From IMG/VR virus record IMGVR_UViG_3300031772_001620, positions 1 to 32,968 of that record: a stretch of 32,968 bases of DNA; one strand, given 5' to 3'. This document shows positions 8,138-28,045 of this stretch, one piece after another (position 1 is the first letter of the stretch; each line of letters starts with the position of its first letter). The notes below the pieces were generated by a model, which did no database searches, was not told where the DNA came from, and saw only the letters and a list, made by a program, of their open reading frames with translations. A program made the translations under genes and the position numbers. This stretch comes from a virus.

Positions 8138-11100
8138 TATTCAACCTTTTCCAATGGGCCAAGGATACGCTGATAAGCAGTCTTATACAGCTCATAGAAT
8201 CTTGGATCTTTTTTAGCCAAATAGATTGCTTGAGCCCGGAACGTCCCCGTCCACTTTTCGCCCCAAGCCTGATACTCCTTTTTTTCGGCTTCAGTCTCAT
8301 CCTGTAATAGCCGACCAAACTTACTGACTCCCTTATTGAAGTCCTCAAAAACAACTTTTAATTTATCTTCGCCTTCAGCATTTAACTTCGCACCATACTC
8401 AGCGATACGGTCGTTGCTTTCAATAGCTTTTATGCTACCCAAAAGAGAATTATATCCGGGGTACCGATCCTGCACCATATTTTTGATCTGCGCAGACGTA
8501 ATTTCTTGACCCGCATATTTACCCATCACATCAAGATCCTCACTGAAGATCCATTTTTTGTTGGGATCACGCGTTTTTTTATTATCTGCGATCTTCTCGC
8601 CCCACTCTTTATACAACTGGTTCTGATATTTGAAAGCATCATGCAACTGCTCACTAGGAGCAAGCACAGATCGAGCAGGGTTAGCAAAGAAGTTTGGTGT
8701 GCCACTCTGGGCACGCCCAAGGTTTGTTAACTCTGCTTGAGCAACATACGCCTGCGCCAAAACATTCTCTTTAATACGCTCAAAATCTTTCAACACAGGA
8801 ACATACCGTTTCAACACATCAGTATTCTCAGACGTACTCCGCCACTGCTGCGGAATAAACAACTGCAACAACGGAGCATTTACTCCACCAAGTTCCCCAA
8901 AACTCAATCCATGTTGGAAAGCATTCAAACGCTGCACTTCCTCCAACAACGGCAGATGGCCTTTAATCCACTCGGCAGCACCCGGAGTATTTGGATGGTG
9001 CTTAGAAAAATCGTTATATGCAGCCAAAGTTTGGCGCATCATAATCTGTTGTGCAGGCCGGTCAAGAAGATAAACCCCGACGTTACGGTACAAAGTTTTA
9101 TCAAAAGAGAACGGAAAGAAAATGAAGTTCGCAGAACGCTCCATAGCGGAACGCCCAATCTGTCCTTCCCGCCCATAAGTAAACATGTGGATCAGTTTCT
9201 CTCGAATCACATGATCCGCTAATCCTTGTTTCTCTAACGCATAGGCAGCGGCCATTTCGTGAGAGCGACCGTTATAAAGCCCAAATACATCTTGTTGCTG
9301 CAAGAAACGATCTGCATCGTCGGCAGCATCCGCATAACTATTATTAAGTTCTGGAAATACTCGCTTTACAGTTTCAAGAGATTTTTTGATTGCCTCATCT
9401 TTGGCATTCTGAAGGAACACTTCAGCATCAGCTTTACTCAGATACTTGTATTCTTCGCTCTGGCGAGCAATACGAGCAGCATCATCACCAATAGATTTAA
9501 GAGGCCGAAGCGAAGGAGTGATCCCTTCCAAAACAAGTTTAAGGTTAGTTTTAACTACTCGACGTATAGAAAAAGACGGCGACAGAGCAAACCTAAACCG
9601 GTTGGAAGCAATCTTAAAACTGTTAGGCATATTTGCCATAGACCAACCAAGAGTATTTGCATAACCTTTGAACCCTATGCCCGGCGTTGAAAGAGCCAAA
9701 CCGGCAGCAGCACCAATCCCAACGTCACGAAGCAAATCTTTAGGATCATCACCCCGAGCAGTACCAACAGCAAGACCAGTACCAGCACCCAAAACAGTCG
9801 CACCGCCAGCAGTCGTCGCCCAACCTGGTGTTCCAACCCACTGTGCGGAAGCCCGAAAGAGGTTATCTAACTGGCTAAGTCCCGCAAACCTGAACGATAC
9901 AGAATAAGACTTGACGGTTTCTTGGTAAATAGCGTTTGCTTCTGCTTTAGTGAACGCTTGTACCCGAGATATAGGCGCTAACCCGACACTTTCGTTGACA
10001 CCAAAAAACGAATCCATTGCTTTCTGGTTAGTCAATATTGAGATGACTCGCTTGGGTCGCAAATCTCGCAACTGCATGATGTCTGTAATCTCGTTAGACA
10101 ATTCGTTTTGGCTAACACCTAAAGCATTTTTAAGACGAGTTTCTTCTCCTTTGCCAAGTCCGCCAAAAGCTTTATGCGCTCCTTTAGCAAAACGCTCCCC
10201 ATAAGATACGTCAGCAATGCCTTCAGTTCCTTCAAGGATCTTGTTTAGATTTCCATCATTGGAACGAATAAGTTGCATCAATTTTTCAATAGAAAGACCA
10301 TCCACACCCGGACGAGCAAACTTCGTAGCAAGCGCCGAATACCGTCTCATACGGTTAGCCTTTTGTGCCACAGGAATCGTAGAGTTCAAAACTACTTCGG
10401 TACTCAAACCCATTCTTGTTAAAGCACGCTTCGTCCACTCTGTACGAACAAACTCTAAATGGTCAGCAGCAGTCTCAGGGACAGTAAGAAATCCTAGATT
10501 TTTGCCTTGAACAAGTTTATAGCCGAGAGCATCAAGGTCTGCGACTGCTTGAACTAACGCAGGGTCAGCATTAATACCAAGAATAACGTCTCTAGCAAGA
10601 CTGTTTGCTCTTGTCGTATATTGGGTAAGTAGACTATTTATTCCTTCTGCACCCGATAATGCTTTTGATTGTTCCATACCAATAGCAAAATGTTGGAAAC
10701 CCCAAGAAAGCATCTTGTCTAGCAGATCATTACGTTCCGCTAAAGCATCCATACCGCCTTCGGCTTTTATAGGACTCTGTGCTTTAACGGAGGCTTCTAA
10801 TATCTTTTGTTCTGCATCTGATAGAGATTCCCAAAACTGGCGATCTTCTCCAAGATGCGACCATTTGCCAGCCCACACACCTGGATCTATTGCTTGAAGA
10901 GCTTGAAAATGTGCATCTGACATTTGGCTAAAATCTATTTTTGAATAAACATCAAAATCTTTACGCATCTGCGCTTGCTCTGCCGGAGTTGCCAAATCCC
11001 AATCAAAATCGTCCTCAATTTTTGGAGGTTCAACTATGCCGCCAGCGTTAGCTCGACCTTGTTTAGCATTAAGTCTTTCCGCAATCAGATCACTTTCTTC

Positions 11101-18663: not shown

Positions 18664-18790
18664 CTAGTGACGCCTCAACCCAACCAACCTGGTCACAACT
18701 AGGACACGGCCCCAACCTCAACACAGAACGACCCCCAACAGGAACCAAAACAACCAACCCACACCTAGAACAAACACAACGCTCAACCAC
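18656..18790 (-). CDS. 44-residue zinc-ribbon peptide
   Basis: A frame from GTG 18790 encodes a protein with two cysteine pairs, CVCSRC and CPSC (residues 5-10 and 29-32), spaced like a zinc ribbon. It overlaps the upstream ribbon-helix-helix gene by 8 nt (GTGGTTGA) and terminase by 8 nt (ATGGGTGA). Longer alternatives reading further upstream give a Cys/Leu/Val-rich product in the wrong frame of the neighbours and are less likely. Its position suggests a regulatory or packaging accessory role, not proven. Confidence 0.55.
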   Translation of the reverse strand: MVERCVCSRCGLVVLVPVGGRSVLRLGPCPSCDQVGWVEASLDG

Positions 18791-18929
18791 CAGAACCCTC
18801 CAAAGCTTCCCACAAAACCAACCGCACCCACTCAGACACCCGAACCCCACGACCCTCAGCCGCCCGCACACAACGATCCCAAAACGGTTGTGGAACCCGC
18901 ACACTCAAAACCTTTACAAACTCAACCAC
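18783..18929 (-). CDS. 48-residue ribbon-helix-helix protein
   Basis: From GTG 18929 the frame gives MVEFVKVLSVRVPQPFWDR and then a helix-loop-helix (VSEWVRLVLWEALEG). This is the layout of an Arc/CopG-type ribbon-helix-helix DNA-binding protein: a short beta strand followed by two helices. The GTG overlaps the sigma-factor stop by 8 nt, so the two are co-translated. It could act as a repressor or co-regulator of the late or cassette promoters. A longer in-frame start would add a region overlapping the sigma gene and is unlikely. Confidence 0.6.
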   Translation of the reverse strand: MVEFVKVLSVRVPQPFWDRCVRAAEGRGVRVSEWVRLVLWEALEGSGG

Positions 18930-19494
18930 ACCACTGCTCCTGAAGTAGCCGAATAGCCCGAGCATGAATCTTCGAAGCCCAAGCCTCACTCCGATCAAAC
19001 ATAGTCCCAATTTCTCTAAACAACAGATCATCATAATAATAGAGCAACAAGACCTGACGTTCTCGCTCAGGCAACGTATCAATCAGATCGTGAAGGAGCT
19101 GTTTAATCTCCCCAACCTCAAACCTACCAAACGGATCGCCCAAAACGATCTCATCAACATTCTCAAACCCATCAACATAAACCAACACCGGACGAACCTT
19201 CACAGACCTCGGAACCCAATCAGACTTCCGCAACTCATCAATCATCGCACCACGAATACGAACCCTCGCATAAGTAGAAAACTTCCAACCCAAACCCGGA
19301 TCAAACTTCTCTATCGCATCAAACAGACCAAACATCCCATACGAAACAAGATCATCCTCCTCAACACTAGACGGCATCCGCAAGACCATATGGTGAGCAA
19401 TACCCACAACCAACGGCCGATACTTCAAGACCAAAAGTTCCCATACCTGTTTTGAACCGGTCGACTTATAGTCGGCCCACAACCCCTCAACCAT
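18922..19494 (-). CDS. Sigma-70 family factor, WhiG/FliA (sigma-28) type
   Basis: The 190 residues contain sigma region 2 (47-100) with DLVSYGMFGLFDAIEKFDP, KFSTYARVRIRGAMIDELR and DWVPRSVK. These are hallmarks of the FliA/WhiG group, which recognises promoters distinct from the housekeeping type. A region 4 helix-turn-helix occupies about 135-185 (LPERERQVLLLYYYDDLLFREIG). It is shorter than usual family members (about 240-260), with region 3 reduced. It is the first gene of the late operon, so it may redirect host RNA polymerase to late promoters. ATG 19494 has no strong Shine-Dalgarno. Confidence 0.85.
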   Translation of the reverse strand: MVEGLWADYKSTGSKQVWELLVLKYRPLVVGIAHHMVLRMPSSVEEDDLVSYGMFGLFDAIEKFDPGLGWKFSTYARVRIRGAMIDELRKSDWVPRSVKVRPVLVYVDGFENVDEIVLGDPFGRFEVGEIKQLLHDLIDTLPERERQVLLLYYYDDLLFREIGTMFDRSEAWASKIHARAIRLLQEQWCG

Positions 19495-19795: not shown

Positions 19796-20126
19796 CCGAG
19801 ACTCTCGCCGCGCTATCTGCCCCGGCGCCTAGCGCGGTGCCATGCCCTCACGCTCCGGGCACTGATCTAGTGCCGCGCTATGTTGCTTTAGGGCTCGGGG
19901 TTCTCGCCGGTAGATAGTGCCGGGGTTCCCATTATCGGGGCGCTCTGCCCCTTGTAGAGCCCTATCCGGGGCCGATTCTCCCCGATTCTCTGCCATAGTG
20001 CCGAGCTCGGCGCGATAACTACCCCTAGCGGCGTAGGTTCGGGGTTCGGGGTTCTTTAGGGTTCGGGAGGGTAGTGTCGGTTGGTTGTGTTGTAGGTTCT
20101 CGGGGTTCTTATTGTGTCGGGACGCG
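19796..20126. other. Gene-free GC-rich spacer
   Basis: No frame in this stretch has a credible ribosome-binding site or recognisable product. It contains repeated CGGGGTTC words (20038-20110), a GCCGAGCTCGGC palindrome (20000-20011), and GGCGCCTAGCGCG near 19823, which is a degenerate relative of the cassette operator core in plus orientation. With the G-rich tract and the late-operon control region it makes about 690 bases without a gene next to the packaging genes. It is a possible site for termini or packaging signals. Confidence 0.5.
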
Positions 20127-20164
20127 TAGAACCCCGGCGCCTAGTGTTAGGGGCCGGGGTTCTA
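20127..20164 (-). terminator. GC-rich hairpin ending cassette 4
   Basis: TAGAACCCCGGC (20127-20138) pairs perfectly with GCCGGGGTTCTA (20153-20164), a 12-bp stem with a 14-nt loop. It lies 19 nt beyond the stop of the 57-residue gene on the minus strand. There is no T-run, as with the other cassette hairpins. Confidence 0.65.
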
Positions 20165-20182
20165 GAGGGTGGTGCTTAGGGT

Positions 20183-20356
20183 TTAGTTAGTTCTGACGCT
20201 CTGGATTACGGCGGCGGCGAGAATCGCGGAGGCTAGGCCGGTAGCTATTAGCACGCCGGGGAATGGGCCCCCGGTTACGGTTCCTATCGTTAGGGCGGCG
20301 ATCAGGTAGGCGGCGGCGTATGCGGCGGCGATTAGGTAGAACCCTAAGCGGCGCAT
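20183..20356 (-). CDS. 57-residue two-helix membrane protein
   Basis: The frame starts at ATG 20356, overlapping the TAA of the upstream gene by 1 nt (TAATG). The product begins MRRLGFYLIAAAYAAAYLIA and has two hydrophobic spans (about 5-26 and 33-51) separated by a Gly/Pro turn (GTVTGGPFPG). A short polar C-terminus follows. Positive residues at the N-terminus suggest the N-terminus faces the cytoplasm. The role is unknown. Holin-like size and topology are noted, but there is no lysis context to support that. Confidence 0.6.
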   Translation of the reverse strand: MRRLGFYLIAAAYAAAYLIAALTIGTVTGGPFPGVLIATGLASAILAAAVIQSVRTN

Positions 20357-20547
20357 TAGAGCTCTACCCCGTCGCGTAGGCCGGTCTCGATCTCGGCGAG
20401 GATACCGGCGGCGTAGGCAAGCGCTAAGCGTTCTAGTAATAGGGCCGGGGCGCTACTGAGTCCGTAGCCCTGTAGTATCTCTTCCGTCACGGCGTCGCCG
20501 AGATAGTTAGCGGCGGCGATACTCTCGCCGGGGGTTAGTGTTGGCAT
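20356..20547 (-). CDS. 63-residue helical hypothetical protein
   Basis: The product (MPTLTPGESIAAANYLGDAV, then a Leu/Ala-rich helix LLLERLALAYAAGILAEIE) looks soluble and helical. ATG 20547 is preceded by AGGAAA and lies about 40 nt downstream of the predicted start site of the conserved cassette promoter. It is the first gene of the fourth cassette, coupled to the membrane protein. No family was recognised. Confidence 0.6.
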   Translation of the reverse strand: MPTLTPGESIAAANYLGDAVTEEILQGYGLSSAPALLLERLALAYAAGILAEIETGLRDGVEL

Positions 20548-20594
20548 TAGTGTTTCCTATTCTGTCGGGGAGCTCGGGCGAGCTCCGCTAGATC

Positions 20595-20623
20595 AGTATG
20601 GCACGCGCTAGGCGTCGCGTCAA
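20595..20623 (-). promoter_or_regulatory. Cassette promoter/operator copy 1
   Basis: On the minus strand TTGACG (20618-20623), a 17-bp spacer and CATACT (20595-20600) make a near-consensus sigma70-type promoter for the 63-residue gene. The 16-bp core CGCGACGCCTAGCGCG (20604-20619) overlaps the -35 and spacer. It is identical in all four cassettes, although spacer sequence is normally free to vary. Confidence 0.8.
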
Positions 20624-20644
20624 GCATTTAGATTCTCGGGGCGC

Positions 20645-20681
20645 GAGAACGCCCCGGCCTACTTAGCGCCGGGGCGTTCTC
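20645..20681 (-). terminator. Strong hairpin after the sliding-clamp cassette
   Basis: GAGAACGCCCCGGC (20645-20658) pairs with GCCGGGGCGTTCTC (20668-20681), a perfect 14-bp stem with a 9-nt loop. It lies after the 84-residue membrane gene and just upstream of the next cassette promoter. It shares the plus-strand word GCGCGAGAACGCCC with the two other cassette hairpins to its right. Confidence 0.75.
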
Positions 20682-20708
20682 TTCAGGTTCTCTAGTCTCT
20701 GGCGCCGT

Positions 20709-20963
20709 TTAGGTTCTCACGATTAGGCCGAGGATTAGTACCCCTAATGCTCCACCCCATACGGCGAGACCGGCGGCGCGTCCCGATTCTCCGCGGCTAA
20801 CGGCAACGGCGTTGGCGTAGACCGCGGCCCGGCGGGTAATGGAGAGCCCTACGATTACGGCGACGATTACGGCGACGGCGAGAATGGGCCCGCGTAAGCT
20901 CTCGCCGCGTTGGATCAGGTTCTCACATTGTACGGGCCAACGCGAGCACTCTAGAGGGGTCAC
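20709..20963 (-). CDS. 84-residue membrane protein
   Basis: Two hydrophobic spans are visible: ILAVAVIVAVIVGLSI (about 27-42) and LAVWGGALGVLILGLIV (about 66-82), with a basic loop between them (TRRAAVY, SRGESGR). GTG 20963 overlaps the sliding-clamp stop by 4 nt (GTGA), so it is co-translated with the clamp. No signal peptide or family is recognised. A clamp/membrane association is only a speculation from context. Confidence 0.6.
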   Translation of the reverse strand: MTPLECSRWPVQCENLIQRGESLRGPILAVAVIVAVIVGLSITRRAAVYANAVAVSRGESGRAAGLAVWGGALGVLILGLIVRT

Positions 20964-22093
20964 GCGGTCACCGGCTCGGCGATTCTTACCGGCATAAGCA
21001 GGGCAAGAGTGCTAACCCCCGTGAAAATGACCGGCTTTAGGTTCCCGGAGAACCCCATAGAGAACCAGGTTCCCGCGCCGTAACCTGTAGATGCGTCTAC
21101 CATCTCGGCGAGATAGGCAGGGTTTAGGCCTACCGTCAGGGGCTCTAGGTTCGGATACTCGCCTAGCGCGATAGTCGCCGAGCCTGTAACCCCGGCCCCG
21201 GTAACGATAACGGCGCCGTAGTCTGCCCCGAACGTGAGAACCGCGGGAACCGTGTCGGCTTTATGCCCCGAGGCTTTAGCGGCGGCGATAATGCGCTTTA
21301 GAACGGCGCCGAGCTCGGCGCCGTTTAGTAGCACACCGTCAGGGTTCTCCGGAAATAGTTGCCTGAAGTTAGGAAAATCTCCATTTATCGGGCGGCCGGT
21401 AATCGTGAGAGAGTGCCCGGCTGTTATCCGGTAGAACCCTTCGCCTAGTTGTAAGTAGCCTGACGCCGAGAATCTCGCCGCGGCGATTATTAGGGCCGCG
21501 GGTAGCAGAGTATCCGGGGCCGGGGTACCCTCGGGGCCGGTAATACCATTACCGGCGCCGAGCTCCGCCGAGCGTAAACGATAGCTATCCGTAGCGGCGA
21601 GAGTCTGACCCTGCTCTAGTATCGCGAGCGCCGTCAGGATAGGCCGGGCGCCGTCGCTTGACGCTACCCGCGCGACCTCGGCGAACCGGTCAAGCTCTAT
21701 AGCCTGAACTCGGCCGAGACCGAAGGGCTCTAGCGCCGGGTGGGGATTATCGGCCCGGGATAGGGTTACGGTGTCGCCGTTATCGAACGTGAGGCCGAGA
21801 GTCTCGGCATCAGGGGCCGAGAGCCTTACGCTCCCCTTATCGGTACCTAGTGCGGCGATTAGTTCGCCGAGGTTTACCGCTACCGGGGCAGGTAGTAGTG
21901 TCTCGCGGTCATCGCCGGGGATAGTGAGCGCCGCCGTAGTGTGGTAATCGCCGAGCGTCAGGGTAAGAACCGTATCGGCGCCGGGATTAGTGCTCGGGGT
22001 AATCGTAACCTCCGGGCGCCGTAGGTTTAGGGCCGCGGCTACTCTCTTTAGCGCTTGCGCGCCTTGCTTTAGTTGTTTAGTTTCGACTCTCAT
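20960..22093 (-). CDS. dnaN: DnaN-like DNA polymerase sliding clamp
   Basis: The 377-residue protein has the three-domain length of bacterial beta clamps. The middle domain is recognisable: FAEVARVASSDGARPILTAL (137-156) and LAATDSYRLRSAEL (165-178) match the signature of beta-clamp domain 2. GDFPNFRQLFPEN (238-250) and the C-terminal KPVIFTG...LLMPVR (about 352-370) match domain 3. The clamp encircles DNA and tethers polymerases and other partners. It starts at ATG 22093 after AGGA, downstream of the cassette promoter copy 2. No polymerase gene is in the window. Codon use follows the GC-rich region. Confidence 0.85.
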   Translation of the reverse strand: MRVETKQLKQGAQALKRVAAALNLRRPEVTITPSTNPGADTVLTLTLGDYHTTAALTIPGDDRETLLPAPVAVNLGELIAALGTDKGSVRLSAPDAETLGLTFDNGDTVTLSRADNPHPALEPFGLGRVQAIELDRFAEVARVASSDGARPILTALAILEQGQTLAATDSYRLRSAELGAGNGITGPEGTPAPDTLLPAALIIAAARFSASGYLQLGEGFYRITAGHSLTITGRPINGDFPNFRQLFPENPDGVLLNGAELGAVLKRIIAAAKASGHKADTVPAVLTFGADYGAVIVTGAGVTGSATIALGEYPNLEPLTVGLNPAYLAEMVDASTGYGAGTWFSMGFSGNLKPVIFTGVSTLALLMPVRIAEPVTA

Positions 22094-22144
22094 TAGTAGG
22101 TTCCTATCTAGTTAGGCCGCGACGGGCGCCGCGACTCTCCCGAG

Positions 22145-22173
22145 AGTATGCCACGCGCTAGGCGTCGCGTCAA
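22145..22173 (-). promoter_or_regulatory. Cassette promoter/operator copy 2
   Basis: Minus-strand TTGACG (22168-22173), a 17-bp spacer and CATACT (22145-22150) drive the sliding-clamp cassette. The core CGCGACGCCTAGCGCG lies at 22154-22169. Only the last spacer base differs from copy 1. The predicted 5' leader is about 45 nt. Confidence 0.8.
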
Positions 22174-22189
22174 CTATCCCCGGCGAGAA

Positions 22190-22445
22190 TCTGCCCCGAG
22201 ACTCAGTATCCGGTGCCGAGCCCCTGCCCCGAGCGTGCCGAGCTCGGCGAGAGTCTCGGCGACGTATCCGGGGCCGGTTCGATTCTCTGGCGAAACTCTC
22301 GCCGAGCGTGCCGAGCCCCTGCCCCGAGAACCTGCCCCGAGCGTGCCAAGGTTCGCAAATCGGCCCCGAACCCGACCCGGCGCCCGAGCTCGGGCCGATC
22401 CTCTCGGCGATTCTCCAAAATCGCACCCGGCGACGCTATAGGGCG
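22190..22445. repeat. C-rich mosaic intergenic repeat, copy A
   Basis: This gene-free stretch is a patchwork of GCCGAG, CTCGGC, CTGCCCCGAG and related words. It shares an exact 23-bp block (22322-22344) and an exact 26-bp block (22367-22392) with the spacer at 23165-23385. It also holds a GCCGAGCTCGGC palindrome (22234-22245). Many overlapping frames are open in all directions because stops are rare in such sequence; none has a ribosome-binding site. Confidence 0.7.
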
Positions 22446-22468
22446 AGAGATGGCGCAAAAGATGGCGC
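22445..22468. repeat. 12-bp tandem repeat, two copies
   Basis: GAGAGATGGCGC and AAAAGATGGCGC sit head to tail, directly beside the hairpin at 22474. They belong to the same family (consensus GAGTGATGGCGC) as the seven-copy array upstream of the recombinase. Confidence 0.75.
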
Positions 22469-22473
22469 GAGAA

Positions 22474-22503
22474 CGCCCGGCCCCATAACATCAGGGCCGG
22501 GCG
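22474..22503 (-). terminator. GC-rich hairpin ending cassette 2
   Basis: CGCCCGGCCC (22474-22483) pairs with GGGCCGGGCG (22494-22503), a 10-bp stem with a 10-nt loop, about 40 nt past the stop of the 177-residue gene. There is no T-run. On the plus strand it is preceded by GCGCGAGAACGCCC, as in two other cassette hairpins. Confidence 0.65.
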
Positions 22504-22545
22504 CTAACGCGCTCTAAGTATCTCGCCTAAAGCAGATTTACCGGG

Positions 22546-23079
22546 TCAGAGTTCGCAATCGTGCCCATAAGAATCTTCGCACGCGCAAAGGTTCGCGCCA
22601 CATTCGGCGCATTTCTCATAAGCGGCTACCGGGCGCCCGTCGCAACTATCTGTTGGGAAGTGACGCGCCCCCGGTGGTACCTCTTCGCAAGCCTCCGCAC
22701 GCCAGACGGTAAGGAACGTATGCGCGACCGTGTAGAGGTCTACGCGCATACGGTCTAACGTGTCGTTCTCAGGGTTGTACCCGCCGAGCTCGTTAGCCTC
22801 CTCTAGGTATTGCCACGCCCTGAGCCCGCTCCACGTTTCTACAATGTCGGCATTGTAGGGGAGGTTATCCCCGGCGGCTAGGTCGGCGAGCTCGTGCGCT
22901 AGTTCGCTCCACGAATCCTCGGCGAGGCTCTCGGGGCTGTAGTTGTAGCGTTCTACTATGTCCCCGGCGAGCCGGGTCACAAAATCGCGCGCGGCGTCGT
23001 TGTCTCGGCTTATGTCGGCGACGTTGGCGACGCGCCACGCCTCGGGCCATTCTGTAGGGGATTCGGTTTCTGTAGTCAT
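22546..23079 (-). CDS. Hypothetical protein with Cys-rich C-terminus (177 aa)
   Basis: ATG 23079 (MTTETESPTEWPEAWRVAN) is chosen over the upstream in-frame ATG at 23136 because the latter would lie inside the cassette promoter. The body is acidic and helical (SWSELAHELADLAAGDNLP; DLYTVAHTFLTVWRAE). The C-terminus holds CAECGANLCACEDSYGHDC, a probable zinc-binding knuckle. It is the only gene of its cassette. The general style resembles accessory proteins of actinobacterial phages and plasmids, but I recognise no named family. Confidence 0.65.
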   Translation of the reverse strand: MTTETESPTEWPEAWRVANVADISRDNDAARDFVTRLAGDIVERYNYSPESLAEDSWSELAHELADLAAGDNLPYNADIVETWSGLRAWQYLEEANELGGYNPENDTLDRMRVDLYTVAHTFLTVWRAEACEEVPPGARHFPTDSCDGRPVAAYEKCAECGANLCACEDSYGHDCEL

Positions 23080-23117
23080 AGCTCTAGCCTCTCTCCCGTA
23101 GGGCGGGCGCCCTAATC

Positions 23118-23134
23118 GGTAAACACTGTTTACC
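23118..23134. promoter_or_regulatory. 17-bp perfect dyad over the -10 of promoter copy 3
   Basis: GGTAAACA-C-TGTTTACC is a perfect inverted repeat with a single central base. It overlaps the -10 box and start site of this promoter only. A half-site GGTAAACAC recurs at 25532-25540 upstream of the recombinase unit. It is a strong candidate for a repressor operator specific to this cassette. Confidence 0.65.
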
Positions 23135-23155
23135 ACGCGCTAGGCGTCGCGTCAA
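23127..23155 (-). promoter_or_regulatory. Cassette promoter/operator copy 3
   Basis: Minus-strand TTGACG (23150-23155), a 17-bp spacer and TAAACA (23127-23132) precede the 177-residue gene. The core CGCGACGCCTAGCGCG lies at 23136-23151. The -10 differs from copies 1 and 2 because it is part of the 17-bp dyad. Confidence 0.75.
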
Positions 23156-23164
23156 GCATCAAAC

Positions 23165-23385
23165 CTAAAACTATTTACAACCCCGAGAACCTGCCCCGAG
23201 CGTCTCGGCGGAGCTCGGCAAAACTCTCGCCAGAAAATCGAACCCCGAGCCCGTCGCCGAGCTCGGCACGCTCCAGAGGATCGAACCCCTACCCGGCGAC
23301 GCCAAAGCGAACCCGACCCGGCGCCCGAGCTCGCCCACCCTGATGCCCTGCCCTGCTCGCCGACAGAGTCTAGCCCCCACCCGGC
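23165..23385. repeat. C-rich mosaic intergenic repeat, copy B
   Basis: This gene-free stretch is related to copy A. An exact 23-bp match lies at 23181-23203 and an exact 26-bp match at 23308-23333. It also carries a GCCGAGCTCGGC palindrome near 23246. The order of the shared blocks is the same as in copy A, suggesting duplication of a whole spacer followed by divergence. No credible gene was found. Confidence 0.7.
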
Positions 23386-23421
23386 GAGCGACGGCGCGAG
23401 TAATGGCGCGAGAGATGGCGC
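23386..23421. repeat. 12-bp tandem repeat, three copies
   Basis: GAGCGACGGCGC, GAGTAATGGCGC and GAGAGATGGCGC follow each other without gaps and abut the hairpin at 23424. They are members of the same 12-bp family as the array upstream of the recombinase. Confidence 0.8.
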
Positions 23422-23423
23422 GA

Positions 23424-23453
23424 GAACGCCCCCGAGCGAACCCGAGGGCGTTC
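23424..23453 (-). terminator. Hairpin ending cassette 1
   Basis: GAACGCCC (23424-23431) pairs with GGGCGTTC (23446-23453). It lies about 55 nt after the stop of the Api92-like gene on the minus strand. It is the same architecture as the other cassette hairpins, again without a T-run. Confidence 0.6.
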
Positions 23454-23504
23454 CCTGTTACCCGGCGCCGAGGGGGTCAGAACCGAGATTCTGGCCTAAC
23501 AGCC

Positions 23505-23528
23505 GAGCTATGGCGCAAGAGATGGCGC
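23505..23528. repeat. 12-bp repeat pair at the 3' end of the Api92-like gene
   Basis: GAGCTATGGCGC and AAGAGATGGCGC overlap the last codons of the gene, so that the C-terminus reads LAPSLAP. The repeat family therefore extends into coding sequence here. The 12-bp length keeps the frame open. Confidence 0.7.
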
Positions 23529-24101
23529 AAGATGCTCATAGAGCTCTGTATCAAGCTCGTCTATTAGAGCGTGTTCGGCGTCTGACTGATTCTGGTAGAA
23601 CGTATCTAGCGGACTCATTCCTGTCGCCGGGTCTATCGTGTCTATTCCCTCTTGCTCCGGGTATGGAGTAGAACCGAGACGCACTAGAGCTGCGTCAAGA
23701 GCGTCACCGTAGTATTGCTTTGCCCAAGTCGCACCATTCTTGCCGTCAAAGATCGCACACCCGATGTCCAATGGCTGTTCTTCCTGCCAGAACAAAGTTA
23801 TGTGTATGTCTAACAAGGCTGCGAGTTTGATTAGCCCGATGTCAGCTGGCCCCCAAGCCGAGGTGAACGAAACATTTACTTCGTTACCGGTCGTGTCTTG
23901 TAATGCCGTCTCGTAGTCGGCCCATTTTGTGCCCCACATTTCTAAAGCTGCTGCGTGCGCATAGTTAGCGTTCGGCACTTTAGTTATGGGGAGGTAATGC
24001 TGGAGTATGCTCTCGCCTTTTTCTGCGAGGCCGATAATCGTGGCTCTTACTTCTGGGTCAGCAATCGTAAATGTTGCGGTCTGGTAAACGTGGTTAGGCA
24101 T
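23508..24101 (-). CDS. Api92/YubB-like ferredoxin-fold protein (DUF1281-like)
   Basis: The 197-residue protein opens MPNHVYQTATFTI and has MWGTKWADYE near 55-64 and NVSFTSAWGPADIGLIKLAA near 75-95. These positions match the N-terminal Asn/aromatic start, the WGTKW motif and the TAW-Pro motif of the Api92/YubB family found on phages and plasmids. The biochemical role of that family is not known to me. Its ATG overlaps the stop of the upstream gene (TAATG). The C-terminus is extended by repeat-encoded LAPSLAP. Confidence 0.65.
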   Translation of the reverse strand: MPNHVYQTATFTIADPEVRATIIGLAEKGESILQHYLPITKVPNANYAHAAALEMWGTKWADYETALQDTTGNEVNVSFTSAWGPADIGLIKLAALLDIHITLFWQEEQPLDIGCAIFDGKNGATWAKQYYGDALDAALVRLGSTPYPEQEGIDTIDPATGMSPLDTFYQNQSDAEHALIDELDTELYEHLAPSLAP

Positions 24102-24490
24102 TATTGCTCCTGTAGGTCGTTGTCAATGATTCGGACTTTGATTCCTTCGGGCCAATCTGTTGCTACCGCTACGCCGTTAGTTACTTCGATAACGACTTCA
24201 CGCTCAACTTCTAGGTCGTAGATCATCTGGGCAAGTTCCTCAACTTCGTATTCTTCTAGCTCGGCGATTCTTGCTTGCCTGCTAGTAGAGGGCTCAAACT
24301 CTATGTCAAAGTTAGACAGATCAGGGTTTACGAACCGTTCCCTCCCCTCTGCGTATGGGATAACAGCAACATCGGAATAGCCATCGTCAATCCACTTATT
24401 AGCCAAGAACCAAGCGGCTGCTTCGGTCAATAAGAAATCGTTTATCTCGGTACCGCCGACAAACACTGAGAAAGTCTTATCGTTAGACAT
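24101..24490 (-). CDS. Hypothetical accessory protein (129 aa)
   Basis: ATG 24490 (MSNDKTFSVFVGGTEINDFL) is preferred because it overlaps the upstream TGA by one base (TGATG); the longer start at 24517 lies deeper in the neighbour. The N-terminus suggests a beta-strand/helix start (VFVGGTEIND.LLTEAAAWFLANK). The middle has a charged helix (ARIAELEEYEVEELAQMIYD) and the end returns to beta strands. Third gene of its cassette. No family was recognised. Confidence 0.6.
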   Translation of the reverse strand: MSNDKTFSVFVGGTEINDFLLTEAAAWFLANKWIDDGYSDVAVIPYAEGRERFVNPDLSNFDIEFEPSTSRQARIAELEEYEVEELAQMIYDLEVEREVVIEVTNGVAVATDWPEGIKVRIIDNDLQEQ

Positions 24491-24822
24491 CAGACGTTCC
24501 CTCCAGAAAGCAAGCAACGCTCACGCCAATCAAGCGCATACAGGTTCTCGGTAGCAGTAAGAGACGCGAGGAACGCTCGCGACGCTTTAGCCTCAACCGG
24601 CCCCTCATCTTCACTCATTGCCTTGTAGGAAACTTCGTTACCCTCATACTCGCAAAGCACTACGGCAGCACAAACGTCGCCGTCAGCGTCACGGTAAGCC
24701 ACATAGAGAGTCGTATGCACAGTCTCCGCTCTGATGATCGGAACGTCAGGGCCAAAGATTTCGCCTATTGCCATTTGCTGTCTTGTTTCTCTCGGGTTGA
24801 TTTTAGTTGTAGTCCAACCCAT
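24490..24822 (-). CDS. DUF6927-like protein
   Basis: The 110-residue protein begins MGWTTTKINPRETRQQ and has a central beta region (TTLYVAYRDADGDVCAAVVL). VSYKAMSEDEGPVEAK and a C-terminal WRERC follow. The order MGWT..., YVAYR, YK-M-E-GP, WR-C matches my recollection of the DUF6927 family in phages and mobile elements; function unknown. It shares 1-nt overlaps with both neighbours and is the second gene of the cassette. Confidence 0.55.
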   Translation of the reverse strand: MGWTTTKINPRETRQQMAIGEIFGPDVPIIRAETVHTTLYVAYRDADGDVCAAVVLCEYEGNEVSYKAMSEDEGPVEAKASRAFLASLTATENLYALDWRERCLLSGGNV

Positions 24823-25352
24823 CAGACTCCACTCCCCTCTGGGTAAACGCGATCAAGAGCTCGCATCTCGGTCGCAACATAAAGCGCTTCGCTATGGAGC
24901 TGGTCGAGAAACTTCTCGCAAGCAATAACTAGCGCCATTGCCATACGTTCTGTAATACCAATCAACGGCTCGTCGGCGATCAGTTCGTCTACCGTGTCGT
25001 CAAAGAGGGAACCGGTAAGCTCGTTGTAGATAGCACGAACCGCATCATCGTCGTGAATGATTAGACCCGACGCTCCAATACCGCGATGCCAGAGCGAATC
25101 TACGGCACTGTTAGCAAGTTCGGTGCGCAAGTCAATACGGTCGTCAAAGTTCAGACCGAAACCCTCATCGCCGATCATTTCCCACGCCCACGCTTCGTCT
25201 ATGCGGCTAACCCAATCGGCATAAAGACTGTCAAGAAAAATCGCGGCGCCGGTACCGTCTAACACGATCTCGGCGCTGGCAGCTATGTCATTAGTCGTGT
25301 ATTCGGCAAGTAAACGCCGCTTAGTTCTATGGACTGTTTCTGTAGGATTCAT
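24822..25352 (-). CDS. Hypothetical accessory protein, first gene of cassette 1
   Basis: The 176-residue acidic protein begins MNPTETVHRTKRRLLAEYTT. Of two adjacent ATG codons, the second (25352) is better spaced from AAGGAG. The body alternates helices with acidic loops (WVSRIDEAWAWEMIGDEGFG; ELIADEPLIGITERMAMALV). It lies about 40 nt downstream of the start site predicted from promoter copy 4. It has no catalytic motif, membrane span or recognised family. Confidence 0.6.
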   Translation of the reverse strand: MNPTETVHRTKRRLLAEYTTNDIAASAEIVLDGTGAAIFLDSLYADWVSRIDEAWAWEMIGDEGFGLNFDDRIDLRTELANSAVDSLWHRGIGASGLIIHDDDAVRAIYNELTGSLFDDTVDELIADEPLIGITERMAMALVIACEKFLDQLHSEALYVATEMRALDRVYPEGSGV

Positions 25353-25400
25353 CATTCTCCTTGTAGGTAGTCGTAGAGCGGGCGCTCCACCGACAAAGAC

Positions 25401-25429
25401 AGTATCGCGCTAGGCGTCGCGCTTGTCAA
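25401..25429 (-). promoter_or_regulatory. Cassette promoter/operator copy 4
   Basis: Minus-strand TTGACA (25424-25429), a 17-bp spacer and GATACT (25401-25406) form the best promoter of the four. The core CGCGACGCCTAGCGCG is at 25406-25421, but here it starts 8 nt after the first T of the -35 rather than 4. The core has moved relative to the boxes and touches the -10 instead of the -35. That fits an operator rather than passive spacer. Confidence 0.8.
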
Positions 25430-25651: not shown

Positions 25652-25739
25652 GTCCCGATACGCCCTCGGCATCAGCCCCAAGCTCGGCTACCAAGCTCGC
25701 CACACTGCGCTCCCCTGATTGGGCCAGGCCCAACCCCCC

Positions 25740-25834
25740 GAGTGATGGCGCGAGCGATGGCGCGAGTGACGGCGCAAGCACCCGACGAGTGACGGCGCGA
25801 GTGATGGCGCGAGTGATGGCGCGAGAGATGGCGC
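25740..25834. repeat. Seven-copy 12-bp tandem repeat upstream of the recombinase
   Basis: Units of GAGTGATGGCGC and close variants run head to tail: three at 25740-25775, an 11-bp degenerate unit (25776-25786), then four at 25787-25834. The array ends about 40 bases before the recombinase start. It could be an array of regulator-binding sites or part of the attachment region. The 88 bases before it (25652-25739) show no gene or clear signal. Confidence 0.85.
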
Positions 25835-25874
25835 GAGATGGTATGGTGATTGTCCCTACATAAAGGAGAACAAA

Positions 25875-26570
25875 ATGCGTCTTATTGGTTATGTGCGTGT
25901 GAGCACTACAGATCAAGCAGAAAAGTTTGGGCCCGATGTCCAACGTAATGCGATTCTTGAGTATGTGAAAACAGAAGGTGCTGAACTTGTCGAGTTCTTT
26001 GAGGATCTAGGCGAGTCTGGTAGTAACGGTCTGGAAACTCGTATCGGTTTGGCACAAGCGATTAGTGCTGTAAAAGCAGGGCGCGCTGATGCTCTAGTTG
26101 TTCATCGGTTAGATCGTTTCTCGCGTGATCTTGGATTACAAGAAGCGTTGATTACTGACCTCGGACATAACAAGAATGGTGATGTCAGGTTGCGTTCTGC
26201 GTGGCCCGGCGAAGGCGAGTTGTTGCAGACTGATCCGACACGCGTTTTGATGCGACAGTTGTTGGGTGCTATCGCTCAGTATGAGAAGGCTTTGATTACT
26301 GCGCGTATGAGCGCTGGCCGGAAACTGAAAATGGCTCAAGGCGGGTACGGTGGAGGCCACGCGCCCTACGGTTATTGTGTCGTTGATGGCCTGTTAGAGC
26401 CTGTAGAGGAAGAGCAGCGCACGCTTGATTGGATTAAAGACCGGGTAGATGCTGGTAAATCTCAACGTGCGATCCTGCGCCTCTTGCTTGCCGAGCAAAT
26501 ACCTGCTAGGTCGGGTAAAGCCTGGTCTTATGGGACTCTCAGGAGTGTGATGGGGCGAGAGAATGGTTGA
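25875..26570 (+). CDS. Short serine recombinase (integrase/resolvase type)
   Basis: The 231-residue enzyme has an N-terminal resolvase catalytic domain (1-145) with R8 and catalytic S10 in YVRVSTTDQ, and D80, R81 and R84 in HRLDRFSRD. The long connecting helix carries LLGAIAQYEKALITARM. The C-terminal part (150-231) resembles the start of the Recombinase domain (GGYGGGHAPYGY) plus a small winged-helix end (SQRAILRLLLAEQIPARSG). It lacks the zinc ribbon and coiled coil of large serine integrases. A strong AAAGGAG precedes ATG 25875. It could integrate the phage, resolve multimers or invert DNA. Confidence 0.85.
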   Translation: MRLIGYVRVSTTDQAEKFGPDVQRNAILEYVKTEGAELVEFFEDLGESGSNGLETRIGLAQAISAVKAGRADALVVHRLDRFSRDLGLQEALITDLGHNKNGDVRLRSAWPGEGELLQTDPTRVLMRQLLGAIAQYEKALITARMSAGRKLKMAQGGYGGGHAPYGYCVVDGLLEPVEEEQRTLDWIKDRVDAGKSQRAILRLLLAEQIPARSGKAWSYGTLRSVMGRENG

Positions 26571-27510: not shown

Positions 27511-27647
27511 GGCTCGACATCTTCCACATACTCGGGAGCAGACAGCTTCTTGTCTCGCATCACACACTTCTCATGCCAAGCCCGAGCCGATTTCCCATAG
27601 ACCACAAGTTTTTGACCACACAACGGACAAACCAAATGTTTTTTCAT
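27507..27647 (-). CDS. 46-residue zinc-ribbon protein
   Basis: A frame from ATG 27647 encodes MKKHLVCPLCGQKLVVYG followed by an HxxxC-type pair (AWHEKC), a compact CxxC...HxxC zinc knuckle. It overlaps WhiB by 4 nt (ATGA at 27644-27647) and the initiator-like gene by 4 nt (ATGA at 27507-27510). The perfect fit between two genes with coupled starts makes it very likely real. Confidence 0.75.
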   Translation of the reverse strand: MKKHLVCPLCGQKLVVYGKSARAWHEKCVMRDKKLSAPEYVEDVEP

Positions 27648-28045
27648 GTTTTCTTCTTGTTATGGTTTGGAGCGATACCACGATGCGCCTGGCTTCGACA
27701 CTGCCGAGAACAAAAGATATTGCGCGCCACATTTTGAGAATCTGTCTTAAACTCTTTACGGCACCCATGACAAATCAAAGCTCGCTCATGTTTAATAACA
27801 GTCGCAAAGTTACGACGCTCAGACGCGTTCAACCCACCCCAAATACCAACCTCGTTATTTTCGGTACCAAAAGTTAGACACGGAAACCGGACAGGACACA
27901 ATTTACAAATCGCTTTTGCTTTCTGCGCAATATGAGATTGTCCGCCAGTCTCAGGAAACCACCAACTCCCATCGTAAACAGGATTAGCGCACGCTGCTTT
28001 TGATCTCCACCCCTCGTCCCCTTGAGAACGTATTTCCTCTCGCAC
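27644..28045 (-). CDS. whiB: WhiB-family iron-sulphur regulator with extra C-terminal Cys4 domain
   Basis: The 133-residue protein has the WhiB signature: C19, then C47, C50 and C56 (AICKLCPVRFPC) for the iron-sulphur cluster, and the GIWGG turn at 67-71. These proteins occur in actinobacteria and their phages and bind DNA with sigma factor. Beyond the usual domain, residues 92-122 add CHGCRKEF and FCSRQCRSQAH, a second likely zinc knuckle absent from standard WhiB. It starts at GTG 28045 after AGGAGG. It may work with the phage or host sigma factor to shift transcription. Confidence 0.9.
   Translation of the reverse strand: MREEIRSQGDEGWRSKAACANPVYDGSWWFPETGGQSHIAQKAKAICKLCPVRFPCLTFGTENNEVGIWGGLNASERRNFATVIKHERALICHGCRKEFKTDSQNVARNIFCSRQCRSQAHRGIAPNHNKKKT

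Follow-up and report, generated by a model that had tools for sequence, protein, structure and literature searches.

Repeated motifs associated with gene starts are known in actinophages of Clusters A, K, M, O and EC–EI; the anatomy described here is a new variant on this theme. The L5-type stoperators of Cluster A mycobacteriophages are more than 20 asymmetric 13-bp sites, many of them intergenic and away from promoters (PMC9283540). In Cluster O, the 17-bp repeat TGTTCGG-N3-CCGAACA, a full dyad, is present in 34 copies in Corndog, about one-third of which lie inside genes (PMC4351075). The 13-bp SAS/ESAS motif of Cluster K overlaps the ribosome-binding site, 3–7 bp from the start codon (PMC3203893), the EC and EG motifs of Microbacterium phages stand ~14–30 bp upstream of the start codon (PMC7302621), and the CR3/CR4 elements of Cluster M combine a conserved repeat with a stem-loop before many genes (PMC7953290). 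Among the descriptions of stoperators, Cluster O repeats, SAS/ESAS, EC–EI motifs and CR3/CR4, in the portions of those sources available, we found no invariant site embedded in a promoter spacer together with an invariant-loop leader hairpin. A sequence-only reading of the present locus had known of no description of its element, which holds for the core sequence itself, for which the literature search found none, and does not hold for the class, as start-associated motifs have been reported in several actinophage clusters.

The window analysed, 32,968 nucleotides, is the entire viral record IMGVR_UViG_3300031772_001620 (1–32,968), which is apparently a fragment, since genes run off both ends. 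Scans with Pfam and PHROGs indicated that it encodes terminase, capsid and tail proteins, a WhiB-like protein, a Rad52/Erf-type annealing protein, a replication initiator, a serine recombinase, a sigma factor and a DnaN-type sliding clamp. The WhiB-like protein, together with remote similarity to phages of Streptomyces and Arthrobacter (~26% identity for the terminase and ~28% for the clamp), indicates that this phage, which has not been described before, probably has an actinobacterium as its host. No near relative was found in the viral and genome collections searched. The clamp, sigma factor and terminase, each used as a single query, gave no match among the viral contigs, and an alignment search with the terminase reached 80 distant loci, mostly at 25–29% identity; in the 30 records searched among these, there was no clamp or sigma match and the shared element was absent. 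The Streptomyces Beephvirinae, which are distant terminase relatives, were also without an equivalent repeated promoter. Among other features of the window, the left end (1–252) consists of a 126-bp tandem duplication within an open reading frame, with copies 80% identical, and the serine recombinase (25875–26570) has a full resolvase domain and about half of the 'Recombinase' domain in just 231 aa, being truncated or unusual.

A 16-bp core inside four predicted promoters

The 16-mer CGCGACGCCTAGCGCG was present in four exact copies, all on the minus strand (20604–20619, 22154–22169, 23136–23151 and 25406–25421), with no further exact copy elsewhere in the record, which may be partial. By chance, 0.32 copies would be expected at up to three mismatches, and no shuffle reached five; a copy with two mismatches at 19821 on the plus strand was without promoter context. 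Each core sits between TTGAC and a −10-like hexamer, with a spacing of 17 nt in all four. Promoter A (25401–25429, minus strand, as are the others) reads TTGACA-N17-GATACT, and its core starts 8 nt into the −35, so that the core ends on the first base of the −10. Promoter B (23127–23155) reads TTGACG-N17-TAAACA, and promoters C (22145–22173) and D (20595–20623) both read TTGACG-N17-CATACT, with the core starting 4 nt into the −35 in these three. The core is, hence, displaced by 4 nt from the −35 in A compared with B–D, with the −35, the −10 and the 17-nt spacing unchanged. Both the four promoter-embedded copies and the shift of register at 25429 had been pointed out in the sequence-only reading and were reproduced here. 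Its proposal that the core is a protein site and not a passive spacer also stands as the probable interpretation, in that the core is identical in four copies amid unrelated flanks and slides by 4 bp against a fixed −35 and −10.

The sequence upstream of the four cores is unrelated among the cassettes, and the distance from promoter to start codon is confined to 74–80 nt (74, 76, 80 and 76 nt across the four units), placing the cores 50–61 bp upstream of the start codons. Weak −10 boxes are common to the four promoters, the TAAACA of promoter B being the weakest. A sigma-70 scan of 18.6–26 kb recovered three of the four promoters, and a regular expression (TTGAC-N16..19 and a −10-like hexamer) applied to the whole window returned three of the four and one coding-region site at 9065, the pattern excluding TAAACA and thus missing promoter B. 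By the hexamer score alone, four promoters compared with 2.9 expected in shuffles were not exceptional. What raises these promoters above chance is the combination of an identical core, a constant spacing, a constant distance to the start codon and the leader hairpin described below.

MerR-type promoters carry a dyad operator in a spacer of 19–20 bp. This reading was rejected here, where each of the four spacers measures 17 bp and the dyad is weak, CGCG-N8-CGCG at best (4/8 positions), weaker than a classic dimer site. The cores resemble the stoperators in being short, asymmetric and identical sites oriented with transcription, which in Cluster A coordinate many units and of which some lie in early promoters (PMC9283540); as there, all four cores are on the strand of the genes that they precede. 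The present locus differs from Cluster A in having four 16-bp sites that are all inside promoters, in a record that may be partial. No Cluster A-type (L5-type two-domain) repressor was recognised among the proteins of this fragment scanned with Pfam and PHROGs. With Cluster O, the locus shares a repeated near-invariant site, of which the function in Cluster O is unknown, and a phage-encoded beta clamp, but the Cluster O repeats are not reported as promoter-embedded (PMC4351075). A Cluster O reading was rejected, as neither the perfect 7-3-7 dyad nor some 30 genome-wide copies were found. Furthermore, the locus is similar to SAS/ESAS and to the EC, EF, EG and EI motifs in that conserved repeated motifs precede subsets of non-structural genes (PMC3203893, PMC7302621); the SAS/ESAS reading was rejected on the position of the core, which is inside the −35/−10 spacer.

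Leader hairpins, cassette genes and 3' ends

All four leaders contain a hairpin with an invariant GCCC tetraloop and a C-G closing pair, the stem beginning 8–11 nt after the −10. These hairpins, again on the minus strand, are GTGGAGC[GCCC]GCTCTAC in cassette A (25373–25390), TTAGGGC[GCCC]GCCCTAC in B (23098–23115), TCGCGGC[GCCC]GTCGCGG in C (22117–22134) and GGAGCTC[GCCC]GAGCTCC in D (20569–20586), with the loop in brackets. The stem sequences differ, and a scripted in-register count across the four hairpins gave 27/28 positions paired natively, compared with 14–17/28 when arms were swapped between cassettes. Minus-strand shuffles of 20.0–25.5 kb gave 0.035 such hairpins, compared with the four seen, and the chance of one per leader after shuffling was 0.0002–0.0006. 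The folding energy of single leaders was modestly below that of shuffles (z of −1.0 to −3.1) and unremarkable for B and C; it is therefore the identical loop and the covariation that carry the case for the hairpins. In a set of 177 sequences (2.0 Mb, the window included), this window alone had at least two non-overlapping promoters with same-loop hairpins after them. A search of Rfam gave no fitting family, the single match having an E of 0.88, below its threshold.

In boxB of phage lambda, the loop is the recognised part, a purine-rich pentaloop with a neighbouring boxA, and HK022 put is a larger two-hairpin element that acts without protein. The leader hairpins recall both as promoter-proximal RNA hairpins of early phage transcripts (HK022 put: PMC9378689). 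The combination of an invariant loop and a variable stem, as in boxB/nut-type elements, was found here in the invariant GCCC and the covarying stems, and a free stem with a fixed loop would be the signature of loop recognition, not of a DNA site. In Rey (Cluster M; PMC7953290), which we inspected, the repeat ACACGGAGAAGGG is ribosome-binding-site-like and hairpins are upstream of the repeat. The present hairpin differs in coming after the promoter and in its invariant loop. For the Cluster A stoperators, no mention of a leader hairpin was found in the available part of the source (PMC9283540).

The promoters precede one to four genes each, all on the minus strand. Cassette A (23508–25355) comprises 24822–25355 (177 aa), 24490–24822 (110 aa), 24101–24490 (129 aa) and 23508–24101 (197 aa); the last protein has a DUF1281/Api92-like C-terminal domain, and tblastn against phages gave no match for the first and the last. 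Cassette B has a single gene (22546–23079, 177 aa) with no family match. Cassette C (20709–22093) contains the gene at 20960–22093, which had been read as a sliding clamp and was identified as such by a match of the DnaN type (PHROG 947, E 8e-25), and a small hydrophobic protein (20709–20963, 84 aa). Cassette D (20183–20547) encodes proteins of 63 aa (20356–20547) and 57 aa (20183–20356), the latter hydrophobic. Beyond its last stop codon, every cassette has a long GC-rich hairpin. Those of A (23422–23455), B (22472–22505) and C (20645–20681) share an identical right arm, GGGCGTTCTCGCGCC, at 23417–23431, 22464–22478 and 20640–20654, respectively (0.08 expected with two mismatches), and that of D (20127–20164) has a 12-bp outer stem and a sequence unlike A–C. 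The 3' hairpins, which are without U-runs, are at most putative terminators. Each cassette with its own predicted promoter and 3' hairpin is, on this evidence, a self-contained predicted transcription unit, as in phage morons. The sequence-only reading was right about a shared element at the promoter level but missed two features, the hairpins of the leaders and those shared at the 3' ends, and these indicate that the whole unit, not the promoter alone, is of common design. Short arrays of the 12-bp tandem repeat CTCGCGCCATCA were also observed near cassette 3' ends and before the serine recombinase (22446–22472, 23387–23425, 23506–23532 and 25737–25838), possibly as iterons or a terminator-linked element.

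A scan of viral (IMG/VR) contigs and of genome contigs revealed no further core-bearing promoter. The 16-mer was found once each in 27 viral contigs: four of these have in common a repeated stretch in which TTGA lies eight bases upstream, with no −10 and an apparently coding context, and the remaining ones were without promoter context. TTGA followed by the core was present in four genome contigs, with no −10 among the matches listed. The shorter pattern TTGA-N0..6-CGACGCCTAGCG matched 56 viral stretches but did not recur in promoters; one match alone was promoter-like (L167, before a small predicted DNA-binding protein), and it was rejected as a single copy with no second in its phage. In the stretches examined around four distant clamp homologues (~28% identity), three of which have the clamp gene inside an operon, the core and GCCC hairpin were absent. 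A distantly related phage contig (L064) has TTGCCGTATAATACGGCA twice, at 292 and 1325 on the minus strand, as a palindrome over a −10 box.

Probable joint regulation of the cassettes and alternative explanations

Taken together, the four cassettes are probably under joint switching by regulators. We lean, with moderate confidence, towards sigma-A-type promoters in which the 16-bp core of the 17-bp spacer is an operator for an occluding repressor, combined with a loop-specific RNA element that acts after initiation. A DNA-binding protein of the phage or the host would sit on the operator and, most simply, block RNA polymerase, since the operator overlaps both promoter elements; such a protein, bound to the core, would extend over parts of the −35 and the spacer and, in A, of the −10 as well. 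The four cassettes would thereby be silenced and released together. On the nascent RNA, the GCCC loop could be read by a loop-specific factor affecting elongation, mRNA stability or translation, and the 3' hairpin would insulate each cassette from the next unit.

The window encodes three candidate regulators, namely the WhiB-like protein, the helix-turn-helix replication protein and a short open reading frame of 49 residues (18786–18932, minus strand; SVRVPxxFW...SEWVRLVLWEAL) overlapping the end of the sigma gene. The last of these resembles a ribbon-helix-helix protein by eye, has no Pfam match and is, speculatively, a candidate binder of the core; the repressor may also be encoded outside the record. 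The sigma factor (18922–19494, minus strand; regions 2 and 4) lies between cassette D and the terminase, directly upstream of the latter, which suggests sigma-driven late genes and a candidate later-stage regulator outside the shared element. The WhiB-like protein (27644–28045) has a C-terminal cysteine-rich segment with a weak match to HNH-type families.

The main rival is an activator site, in which a phage factor, such as the WhiB-like protein or a sigma-associated factor, recruits polymerase from the spacer and turns on a middle-gene class. Activator-dependent promoters often have poor −10 boxes, and the boxes here are poor; the four units are all in the same orientation, and a WhiB-like protein and a sigma factor are both encoded in the window. 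The 4-bp displacement of the core, more than one-third of a helical turn, would nevertheless rotate an activator by ~140 degrees relative to polymerase with the promoter geometry unchanged, which occlusion tolerates better than an activator on a fixed face, and the 17-bp spacing is already optimal, arguing against a MerR-type distortion of 19–20 bp spacers. We therefore favour the repressor operator and regard an activator as unlikely. Far less probable still, and rejected, is the reading that the core serves the nearby serine recombinase, encoded ~450 bp upstream of promoter A, and marks points of cassette exchange, even though the four sites are identical, point the same way and flank different genes. 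The sites of serine recombinases are longer and consist of inverted repeats on either side of a central dinucleotide; all four cores are inside promoters, the recombinase is small with a partial second domain, and the hairpin and the 3' arm would be left unexplained.

The hairpins might instead be protective stems that stabilise the mRNA alongside an operator, their common loop being a coincidence or a structural preference. They lie near the predicted 5' end, where stems of this kind are usually found, which would suit this account, but the especially stable tetraloops are UNCG, GNRA and CUUG, and GCCC, which is not one of them, is invariant in all four at the low chance level given above, so that we consider this account improbable. 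Equally improbable, in our estimate, is that a single cassette frame of promoter, hairpin and terminator was recently copied with different genes inserted and no binding protein involved. Cassettes B, C and D lie in an island (20000–23500) of ~62% G+C in a genome of ~50%, in which CTG/CAG occur at ~0.4 of expectation, GCAGC/GCTGC are absent compared with 12.8 expected, and GGCGCC and GAGCTC are in excess; the three share 22 bp from TTGACG through the core, and the 3' arm is common to A–C. On the other hand, the flanks and leaders are otherwise unrelated, and the stems have diverged by paired changes with the core and loop unchanged. Cassette A, moreover, is outside the island, has an ordinary base composition and thus lacks the moron-like deviation of B–D, and differs in register, yet has the core, the loop and the 3' arm in common with them. 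When four paralogous units sit in a single genome, common descent through copying is not fully separable from selection, and this explanation keeps real weight.

We tentatively put forward, as a possibility of rather low probability, a two-level regulon in which a DNA-binding protein at the promoter operator and an RNA-binding factor at the GCCC loop act on modular cassettes. If so, genes inserted between the standard ends would fall under both controls. The pair of operator and hairpin, if real, would represent a compact phage frame with control at and after initiation. More generally, the locus would then offer a concrete case for the long-unexplained repeated start motifs of actinobacterial phages in which the core, register, stem and loop can be separately changed.
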